Shown here: in pieces, positions 45,101 to 57,100 of the stretch | How the letters are laid out: every line of letters begins with the position of its first letter | How positions within the stretch are numbered: position 1 is the stretch's first letter | Source: Arctopsyche grandis | Lineage: Eukaryota; Arthropoda; Insecta; Trichoptera; Hydropsychidae | Assembly: GCF_051622035.1 (NCBI RefSeq) | Contig: NC_135364.1 | Location: 20,301,001-20,365,000, forward strand | Direction: 5' to 3' | Length of the DNA stretch: 64,000 nt | Notes under the pieces: model-generated | Seen by the model: only the letters and a program-made list of their open reading frames with translations | Databases searched by the model: none | Told to the model about the DNA's origin: nothing | Made by a program: the position numbers and the translations under genes

Positions 45101-48100
45101 CCTGGAAAAGGTCGTTGATGGCCCTCGGAATGATGCCCATCTCGTCCTTGAGAAGTTCCACGTCGAAAGCCGTGCCCATTGTGTACGTTTTGCCTGACCC
45201 AGTCTGTAAAAATAAAAACAAAAAAAAATCATGAAAACACGAACAGAGATATACATACATATGACATACTATATAGGTACATAAAAAACAGTAAAAATTT
45301 TGGAATCGAATCGCCACAATATCATATCACTTATTGATTTTTCGGATATATATGGATAAAAAATTTTCAAAAGCTACTCCCTATCTTGCACTTGGCAGCA
45401 CTGGCACAGTTGGCAGTGCTGACATAATTGGCGACATTGGCACAGTTGGGAATCCTGGTACACTTCATGAAATTGGCTGCTCCAGTTAGTGTGCCAATTT
45501 ATCGTCGAGCATAAAGCCGTGAGGATGGAAATAATTCAATAAATAGATAAGTCTACACTCGAAGAATGTCTTTCATTTGTAAGTACATATGTAGTGCAAG
45601 TCTTCAAAATTCACCACTAAATGCCTCCTCAATACATTTGAAATAGTTGAAAACTAAATCAAACCACTATTCTGTAACCATCAACTTGCCAGGTATATAC
45701 ATATGTATGATTTCTGATTATATTGTTTAATATCGGTTATATTGTAATACGTAATTGATTTAAAAAAAAAAAAATTCTTGGCTTCACTTGATCACTTTCA
45801 TAATTATGGACACATATGTATGTACTTAGTAATCACTACTCTCAATAGAGATTTACTATGATATCAACGGTGTCACGAAAGGTTGCCCCAAAGCGTTATC
45901 ATTTTGTCCGCAGACATAATGTCGCGTTATCATTTTGTCGTAGAAGTTGTGTCATTAGACGTTTTGTCGCGGAATCGATATCAACGTCCTAATCACTGAT
46001 AAGTTCTAATCCCAAACTTGTTTAATCTGTTTGAAAATGTTGACACATATTCGAGTACTTTAAATATAGTTATAAAATATCAGTTTAAAGAAAGTGATTT
46101 ATGTATTTGTTATTTAAGAATGTTTGCACAACTTGATACGAGCATGTGTTCGGATTGATTTATACATACATATATTGGTTCAAAGATCAAAAATTAACAA
46201 CACACTGAATCTGAATACGTGCATCAAAATGATAAATTAACATATAATATTGCAATTTTTAATTCGAAAGTTTTGTTAAAATCTGTTCATAAATATTCCA
46301 CAAAAAAGCAACTTCATTATGATCTAGAGATCAGTATTTAAATATATTCATTTAATTCAAAATATAAACTATTAACTGAGAATAAAGAAGACAAACAAAC
46401 AAACACGATTGTAATCATTTTAAATATTAATATCGGTCAATGGCAAGCAGAGTGCAAATTGAAAAAGGTAAACTCAACTTACTTATGACCCACGCAAACA
46501 TTAACATGACAAACGAATGCTTCCATTAAAGTCCACTTACGAACATCGAATCATTTCTACACTTCGAAGAATTAATTCCAACACGCCGAAATTCCATTGC
46601 CTTTTATTAATTTTTTTTCTAGAATCATCGAAATCTAATTTACGACACGGCCGACTGGTTTCGCACGTATTCGCGTGTCCGAAATTCCAGGTAGGTATTT
46701 ATTCTGCCACCGACCGAAAGCTAACGATGTCGCTGATCACACAAACGCGCGTGAAGATCACCGGTTAAACTGAAAGATAACTAAGCGCCGGTCATCGCAA
46801 GGTTAACGTTTGATAAATAGGTAAAACTATGTGTCATCGGTCGGTCGGTGACTGCTTTTGATCAGTCGGTGTGAAAATTCTAATCATGTCCTGTGCAGTC
46901 TCAATGCGACGATTCGAAAAGACGTATGTACATACATATTGTATTGGGCCGTTTAGCGGATATAAATAAAATAACTATTGGGTGATCTCGAAATAGGAAC
47001 CGGCTGCTAAAAATGTACTTTCGTGCGTTATTAGAAAGAAATAGTGGACAGTTGAGAGATGACCAATCTGCTAATTAAGTCCGGAAAATGTAAATATAAA
47101 CTTCGTGTGCGAAATGTTCGACTTTCTGTCCTGTAACGAAATCTATGTGGGTATATTCGAGCGAGTATGCGAATTAATTACAAAACTGTCAAGTTGAATT
47201 TTCTTTTCACTTTCTATTGACTCTTCGAATGTTTGGAACATCTTATATAAATATGCATGCTATTAAAATAATTAAACTTTTCCGCTGTTTCGACAGCGTC
47301 AACTATATTCAAATAATGAATATGAGATGTTTTGAATATTTCTAAAATATTTAATAAGAAACAAAGAAATAATACATTCAAATTAATCTCGTTCGTTATT
47401 TAAAACGATACTTAATTTTCATTTAACAATTTATTGATTTTTTCTTCCTGAAAGAATTCGTATCCTCATTTGTAAGAATTGAAAAATTCAGGTGGGGAAA
47501 GTCAATATTAGCAATGACGGACAATACCTAGCAGCCAAGGAGTGTCCTGGATAACAGATCAGATGATCACAGGTCAATTGGCACACCTAAACTATGGTGT
47601 CAGAACTGTCATCAAAGAAGGCCGAATGCATGCAATTGGTATGAACTGGTACATGAGAGAGGAAAATGGAAAATAAATAAAATAATAATAATTTTTAAAA
47701 AATGATGATAACTTTCAATTGGTGTCACGACAAAACGCTCATAGACATAATACTCAACGACACAACGCGCACAACATAACGCTCACGCAAAATAACGCCC
47801 ACGACATTATAATTAACACCAATTAAAAAAATAATTGTTACTGTACAAAAATCCTTATAAATACGAAGTCATGAAAAATTTCTACAATTAATTTGGTACT
47901 TTGTGAATAAATTGAGATTAAACTGGTTTATTTAATATATATTTTATTTCTTAATCAGTAATGAGATACTGTGTAAATTCGTCGAGACACGTTTTATTGA
48001 ATTTTGGATTAATTTTGCTGTAAAAAATAGCGTTTTTATACGTACAAATGCGTGAGTGAGAGCGTTGTGTCGCTTGAGCATTTTATCTGTGATTACAATG

Positions 48101-54100: not shown

Positions 54101-57100
54101 ATCAAGAAATTCGATATGCAACGAATTTGCGAGAAACTGAAAATTGGTATGCCTATTTTATTGGATCCATCACAACGCTTAAGCTTGAGAAATCGGCTAA
54201 TTCTAGCAGGAGACAGGGTTTTAATAACTTCCCAGATCTCGCCAGCAGCTTATATACATAGACAAATGCTTACTCGATTCCGGCCGAGATTTGAACCCAC
54301 AACCTTCTCTACTGGTACAAAATGATTTGACCAGTGAGCTACGGCTGTGGCTGTATCGAGGATGTCAATGCACTTGGTGATTATTTGTATTGAGGCTAGA
54401 ACAAATGGTGTTCTTGATATATGTATTCGTTCATTCATAGGGGGATGGCCACCCACTGGTGCAGTTACATATCTTTATAATATTGATATTAAATATATCC
54501 AGCGCACGATACAAAGGAGCATGACGTGCTTTTCATATTCAAGTGTCGTCTACGTCTATTGATCGGATACATTGTTTGATAATATTATTTCTAGGCACCT
54601 TCCTATCGTGAGCTGGGTATACTTAATAGAGTACTGATTGTTTTGAGTTTGAAATCGCCATCTGTTATATTTCAAATTTTCACAGTATCTTGCATATTTT
54701 CATTATACTCGGTGACTTTCAAGATATGCTCTCTTATTCACTCAAATGGTACTGTCATTCGATGGTAAAATTAATTTACACTCATCATCGTAAAACGCAT
54801 TGTTTAGAGGCGACCGTTTTAAAGTGCCGTTCATTTTGGAATGGGAATTGTCTTGACACACAAATGTCAAATGAATTTTGTTCCTTTGCAGAAATTTTTG
54901 CTTAGTTCATTCAAGTGCATCGTCGTCTTTGTTAAAAATATACAAATGAGTTCCTTGAATCATCGATAGTGCATTTGATGTGGTTGCCGTTCGCCGTTTG
55001 AAGAACTGGTTGCAACTTGCCCTAACCATTTATAGAATGACATGGCAAAAGTGCCTAACAATTTCTTTGTTCTCTTTACTCGAAGCCGATCAGCAGTTCC
55101 TCCGGCAGAACCATTTTGGAGTGGCCAACCCTCGATTTTGCGACGAAACATCAAAGCGCACCATAAACAGTCGGAAGACTCAACCTTGAGGTGCTCATGA
55201 ATGTCGTAACACACCATCCATTTTCCGAATGGAAGAGGAGACGTCCGTTTTGGCTCAAGCTGCTTGTTGTCCTGGGTGACGATTTTCACGGTCGTTCTTT
55301 TAGCTCGGAACCGATTTCCACTTCTATTTATAGGCGTTGTCTCGGTTCGAAGGGTTTCCTAACCGACTACTAGTTTTCCATGGTAACGGTCGAGATACAT
55401 TGCACGTATTATTGACTGAAAGCATGATTCATCAGGCCGATTTGCATTCAGGATTTTTGACTCAATTGTGTCAATGTCAATCTTATGTTTAAATTAGCAT
55501 TTGACGTTGTCATATTGTTCTAGTCAAATTATGTGTGAAATTGTCTTAACGGTAGAATCTAAAGAGGAAATGTGATACGCCTATTTTTGTATAATATATT
55601 TTTCATTTGTATAAATTACTAGCTTGGTGCGTGGCTTCAATCAGGAAATAATTTTGAAAACTTTATGTATTTCAGCAATGTACATATTTAAAGAATATAT
55701 ACATATTGTATTATATAATGTGGGCATTCTATGGTTTTTTTTTGTATGTAGAAATTGGCATGCACTCATACTTTATATTTCAAATTTCATACAAAATCAA
55801 TGTTCCTGCACATAATAAAGGGGTGAAAAGTGTTCTATACATACATACATGACTTTTATGAGACATAGGGTGCTAATCCATAAGCGTAAATGCCAAAGCT
55901 TAGAATATCTAAGGTCTTGACAACTAGCATTTTTTTATCATACGTAGTATCTGAGCTGGCCAAATTCATAATTTTTGATCGTAAGCTAGGGTTTAAGGTT
56001 TGTTTATACCAATATATGTATGTAATTCAAGCCGGCAACTGCACTTGAAGAGCAGTGCGATAAATATTATTTAGTACATTCCATATGGACACATTCATAT
56101 GTTCCGTAATATGTACATACATATGTATGTATGTATGTGACACGATCTATTCATATTATACAGTAGTACTTGTCACCGAAACGTATAAAACAGAACCGGT
56201 TTGGCCACTATTGAAATATTCACTCACGACAGGACATCATAGTGGCGAGTGCACCCGTACTAATGAAAGTGCTGTCATACGCACATGAATATTTTCGGAA
56301 ATGTCATATTGTGACAATATTGACTTGACGATACGATGGAAGTAATATTGCGCCGAATCATCGCGCTCTGTAATGTATATGTGAGTCGATTTTATCTTGC
56401 ACTCGTTCAAAACAAGCATGAACGTGTCGAAAACGGGCGGTGCCGTATAGTATGAATATAAGTAGTATTTTTTGTGAAGTACGGTGCTGAGCAGTTGACG
56501 TGTAATGCTGCATCTTTATTTTGTTATTCGAATTTGAATAGAATTTGTACTTATTCCATCTAAATTATGAAATTGAAAGGGTTCCGTCACAAAACGCTCA
56601 CGGACCTAACGTTCAACGACACAACACGCACGACATAACGCCACGTGACAAAACACTCACGGACATTGTAATCACAGATAAAATGCTCAAGCGACACAAC
56701 GCTCTCACTCACGCATTTGTACGTATAAAAACGCTATTTTTTACAGCAAAATTAATCCAAAATTCAATAAAACGTGTCTCGACGAATTTACACAGTATCT
56801 CATCACTGATTAAGAAATAAAATATATATTAAATAAACCAGTTTAATCTCAATTTATTCACAAAGTACCAAATTAATTGTAGAAATTTTTCATGACTTCG
56901 TACGAATTTATAAGGATTTTTGTACAGTAACTGAAATACACGCTTCGAAATAATTTGAGCAACACCACAAAATATGACGAGTATTATATTATATATATAT
57001 ATATATATATATATATATATATATATATATATATATATATATATATATATATATATAGAGAGAGAAAATTATATAGAAAAAAAAAATATATATATATATA

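Follow-up and report, generated by a model that had tools for sequence, protein, structure and literature searches.

A near-perfect palindrome in a kinesin intron of Arctopsyche grandis is probably the scar of a small local inversion with duplicated ends

Long inverted repeats inside genes are a feature of hairpin-RNA and endo-siRNA loci, which the locus described here resembles by its geometry, as a long inverted repeat within a gene. The literature on intronic long inverted repeats yielded no direct match, and that on microinversions with palindromes yielded the Drosophila subobscura O7 case alone (PMC7584159). In the excerpts of that paper, O7 is a microinversion of 2,026 bp whose inverted duplications are 59 bp long, and a break lies within a palindromic, AT-rich repeat; staggered-break models are described there, with a warning that repair alone may give the same pattern. 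As interpreted below, the A. grandis locus would share with O7 an inverted segment bordered by inverted end duplications and a palindromic AT-rich break. It would differ in its single-copy core of just 0.74 kb, in one far longer duplication (4.05 kb), which gives it the look of a palindrome, and in a sub-block (w, below) that lacks the expected inversion. Duplication of both inversion ends is also common to the dupINVdup class of complex structural variants of human genomes (PMC5338099, excerpts). The human variants were called against a reference, one inversion being of 5.1 Mb, whereas the present one is known from the rearranged sequence alone.

The window analysed is a stretch of 64,000 nucleotides of contig NC_135364.1, and all positions are counted from its first letter. 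The host intron and the two arms are as follows.

45204..58511, minus strand: kinesin-motor intron of 13,308 bp containing the entire structure (Pfam PF00225 on both exons, splice-site letters)
47837..51885, plus strand: left arm, block A, 4049 bp, the ancestral copy in the model (self-BLAST, global alignment)
52879..56931, minus strand: right arm, block A', 4053 bp, the inverted copy (self-BLAST, global alignment)

The exons bordering the intron, one ending in AYGQ (58512) and the next beginning with TGSGKT (45203), both matched the Pfam kinesin motor PF00225. As read from the letters, the donor is CAG/GTAATT (exon end 58512) and the acceptor TTTTTACAG/AC (exon start 45203). The sequence-only reading of this DNA had placed the palindrome within the intron that splits the kinesin P-loop, and the domain matches on both flanking exons and the clean splice signals confirmed this. 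Among 34 listed solved relatives, the best for the TGSGKT exon was chain 7x4n_E ('Kinesin-like protein'), which we take to be a kinesin-4 of the KIF21 kind.

By self-BLAST the left arm (47837-51885) matched 56931-52879 as an inverted copy with 99.877% identity over 4053 columns. Global alignment showed two differences, a substitution at 47960 / 56804 and a 4-nt indel at 47861 / 56903-56906, and the arms are exactly identical over their inner 3925 bp; the spacer between them (51886-52878) is 993 bp. Both methods agreed with the earlier description by eye of arms of about 4.05 kb with one substitution, one 4-nt indel and a 993-bp spacer. The constant coordinate sum of 104764 given for the arms held inside the indel, but outside it the sum is 104768. 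The indel falls in a short palindromic motif at 56897-56906 (TTCGTACGAA) that the right arm carries and that is shorter in the left arm. In the left flank, 47730-47813 matches the arm at about 48092-48175 over a short length in inverted orientation (80%), and the same phrase is repeated in the flanks too.

The repeat content of 264 contiguous kb (the window plus 200 kb upstream) was examined with megablast at an identity of at least 80% and with the low-complexity filter on. Of the 28 repeat pairs that reached 300 bp, the palindrome was the longest; the runner-up was a direct pair of 962 bp, and the longest other inverted pair was 502 bp. The palindrome is far beyond chance expectation, its rarity being judged on 264 kb from one chromosome. 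Three copies of a dispersed repeat of about 380 bp, about 93% alike, were seen in the window at 7885-8278, 23433-23817 and 44302-44680, with more in the 200 kb upstream.

The palindrome is present in the sequence, but its description as two arms and a spacer was incomplete, as the left part of the spacer (51886-52138), which reads (TA)n-w-(TA)n-u, recurs inverted at 56932-57200, directly outside the right arm. The blocks and junctions of this second repeat pair are given below.

51886..52138, minus strand: block C', (TA)n-w-(TA)n-u, an inverted copy of 56932-57200 save for the non-inverted core w
51912..51977, plus strand: core w, copy 1, oriented like copy 2, contrary to the simplest model
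52080-52138: u, 59/59 identical to 56990-56932, found by the genome search in these two places only
52139..52878, minus strand: block B' (segment S), 740 bp, single-copy, inverted in the model, with one match in the genome search
56932..57200, plus strand: block C, u'-(TA)n-w-(TA)n, 269 bp, the ancestral copy in the model
57058..57123, plus strand: core w, copy 2
51885..51886: novel junction J2, the inner end of A joined to the outer end of C
56931..56932: novel junction J4, the outer end of A' joined to the inner end of C, with zero shared bases (blunt)

Between C' and C, u is inverted, the TA tracts are identical read either way and core w (66 bp) is direct, with the TA/w tracts 51886-52054 and 57032-57200 forming a 169-bp direct match of 99.4%. 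The two copies vary in the lengths of their TA tracts and in the poly-A of w. Flipping w in a test copy raised the global alignment score from 350.5 to 366.0 only, a small gain because the TA tracts align in either direction. TA tracts of at least 60 bp numbered eight in the 264 kb, three of them in C or C'. The letters TTTC at J2 recur in the reverse complement of 57201-57204, which adjoins C on the outside, at the place where the model would have C' begin. The arm homology and the u homology stop at the same base, 56931/56932, where the copies of A' and C abut exactly; this coincidence at a novel junction fits what an inversion model demands.

The structure is probably a recent local inversion with both ends duplicated, in which X-A-B-C-Y became X-A-C'-B'-A'-C-Y. 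With an inversion of 0.74 kb and inverted end duplications of 4.05 kb and about 0.26 kb, it is likely a member of the class known as staggered-break or dupINVdup. What was observed here comprises the blocks, their individual matches, their coincident ends and the most parsimonious block order; the present order fits X-A-C'-B'-A'-C-Y with B single-copy, the orientation of core w within C' excepted. All 384 single-copy orders and orientations of the blocks FL, A, K (TA-w-TA), u, S and FR were enumerated as possible ancestors, all blocks being assumed local and none lost. FL-A-S'-u'-K-FR was the sole ancestor with every adjacency still present, with three novel junctions, one of which (K to u) falls inside palindromic TA; the three runner-up orders each lost one adjacency and had four novel junctions. 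When the orientation of K was ignored, this order and its K-flipped twin tied, with all adjacencies kept and two novel junctions.

For the break and repair route we infer the following. The ancestral intron would have consisted of FL, A (4.05 kb), B (0.74 kb), C (u' plus (TA)n-w-(TA)n, about 0.26 kb) and FR, and would have been broken at both ends of B, on one side at the palindromic AT tract, with (TA)n acting as a fragile site. Staggered breaks, or repair by copying, would have given the inverted piece an extra A and an extra C. The extra A would provide the palindrome arms, and inverted B together with C' the 'spacer'; because the duplicated A is long, the product of the inversion would resemble a palindrome. 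Sister-chromatid exchange or replicative template switching would be preferred over fill-in as the repair route, since a single-strand overhang of 4 kb would be long. Stalled forks carry up to 3 kb of single-stranded DNA (cited in PMC7584159, excerpts), and the longer 4-kb end duplication therefore counts against the model. The main point against its simplest form is the orientation of core w, which needs an extra flip or a template switch; w may later have flipped between its self-complementary TA flanks. The inversion would make any function unnecessary, an intronic hairpin RNA being a by-product removed along with the intron.

The 475.7-Mb assembly was searched with the blocks of the locus; copy counts are lower bounds because simple repeats and very common words were skipped in this search. 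At least one place was matched by the spacer, at least two by u and at least two, full-length, by the arm core (48750-51885). Embedded short repeats aside, the arms and the spacer had no match elsewhere in the assembly under the same search, and with matches confined to the locus the blocks therefore look local. The embedded repeats of the arms are the following.

48251..48772: interspersed repeat in arm A, mirrored in A', with at least 47 matches (the best 40 of 2958 candidates scored)
50848..51187: second interspersed repeat in arm A, mirrored in A', with at least 46 matches (the best 40 of 3663 candidates scored)

A few weaker matches of the second repeat extend back to about 50412. The stretch 50410-50495 and its inverted right-arm copy contain letters that resemble the A-box and B-box of a tRNA (TAGCTCACTGG, GGTTCAAATC) and may belong to a tRNA-derived SINE. 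The main other genome matches of the two repeats were 75-82% and 81-88% identical, with more variation in short, weak matches. With the arms themselves nearly identical, their duplication seems far more recent than the repeat insertions. The recent duplication, which the sequence-only reading offered beside gene conversion and an assembly fold-back, is the best fit, the arms sharing older repeats yet differing by one base and one indel, and gene conversion after the duplication event may have made the arms look younger. The single substitution over about 4.05 kb gives a divergence of 0.025%. Taking about 3e-9 mutations per site per generation, an insect-like rate, this suggests an age in the tens of thousands of generations; the error is very wide, as the estimate depends on a single substitution.

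Serial template switching in replication-based repair, from the same ancestor or from a different one (for example FL-A-K-u-S-FR with an inserted A'-u'-K), is an unlikely but reasonable alternative. It would make a later flip of w unnecessary to explain its direct orientation, the TTTC microhomology at J2 fits it, and repair alone may leave such duplications (PMC7584159, excerpts). Its different-ancestor form is disfavoured by the enumeration, where the three next-best orders lose an adjacency each and take four novel junctions against three. From the same ancestor, template switching is an alternative route to the same product and overlaps the inversion with duplicated ends; the letters read alike for both routes. 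That the inverted copy was made by a fold-back or amplification-chimera read, as the near identity of the arms might indicate, appears rather improbable. Amplification chimeras may show microhomology, as J2 does over 4 bp. Artificial palindromes after whole-genome amplification have been described (PMC6218980, excerpts). In a fold-back, however, A' would be followed by FL in reverse, whereas A' passes bluntly into u' and then into FR; a mirror of the left flank was sought beyond the right arm and was absent, the right flank being different from the reverse of the left flank. The assembly fold-back suggested earlier is therefore disfavoured in its simple form, because a fold-back read explains one junction and not two, and the right arm exits through a second, blunt junction into inverted spacer sequence. 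For an artefact, another chimera would have to have formed at the very same place; moreover, the copies differ (the substitution, the 4-nt indel, the TA-tract lengths and the poly-A in w), and the window contains no N. The excerpted definition in PMC12870357 has a fold-back realign within 200 bp on the opposite strand, as against a spacer of 993 bp here. The same excerpts report fold-backs as virtually absent in PacBio HiFi data, from three PacBio samples only and on what may not be the platform used here.

A transposon of the fold-back type, with terminal inverted repeats of great length, a reading prompted by long inverted arms around a short spacer, is extremely improbable. In the lower-bound counts of the genome search the arm core and the spacer matched no second locus, and the lack of matches elsewhere argues against a transposon. 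No target-site duplication was present at the outer arm ends (...AATAATT versus TGAAATA...), and the transposon reading was dropped on these two grounds. The Pfam cut-off was reached by none of 16 ORFs (the 15 stop-to-stop ORFs of at least 60 aa that lie entirely within the left arm, and one more at the spacer/right-arm edge; three TA-tract ORFs and the right-arm mirror ORFs were left out), the best score being 16.5 bits (E 0.0099) against a cut-off of 26. It is highly doubtful that the palindrome is a selected hairpin-RNA locus, maintained as a dsRNA source of small RNAs or as a regulator of kinesin splicing. The geometry, with 4-kb arms within a single intron, speaks for it; on the other side, no Rfam family reached its gathering score in the region, the best weak match being mir-297 on TA repeats (E 0.73, 25 bits against a cut-off of 90), and the identity of the arms is explained by youth, making selection unnecessary. 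At gathering score, the window as a whole held a tRNA elsewhere only: 19910-19982 on the minus strand was scored as tRNA by Rfam and named tRNA-Arg (anticodon TCG) by ARAGORN.

The palindrome could plausibly be transcribed into long dsRNA while the intron exists. That the hairpin in the kinesin pre-mRNA would be processed or edited as long dsRNA, and be a new, one-step source of small RNAs coupled to kinesin transcription, is very unlikely. The rearrangement looks like one of a known, ordinary kind, neither a mobile element nor a proven new RNA system. The inversion with duplicated ends suggests that a large, near-perfect palindrome can apparently arise incidentally when a very small inversion takes place at an AT-rich tract, an origin that would need neither a transposon nor gene conversion to account for the identity of the arms. 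The locus is a well-preserved scar in which nearly all breakpoints are readable, and it offers a natural test of the dsRNA output of a young intronic hairpin.
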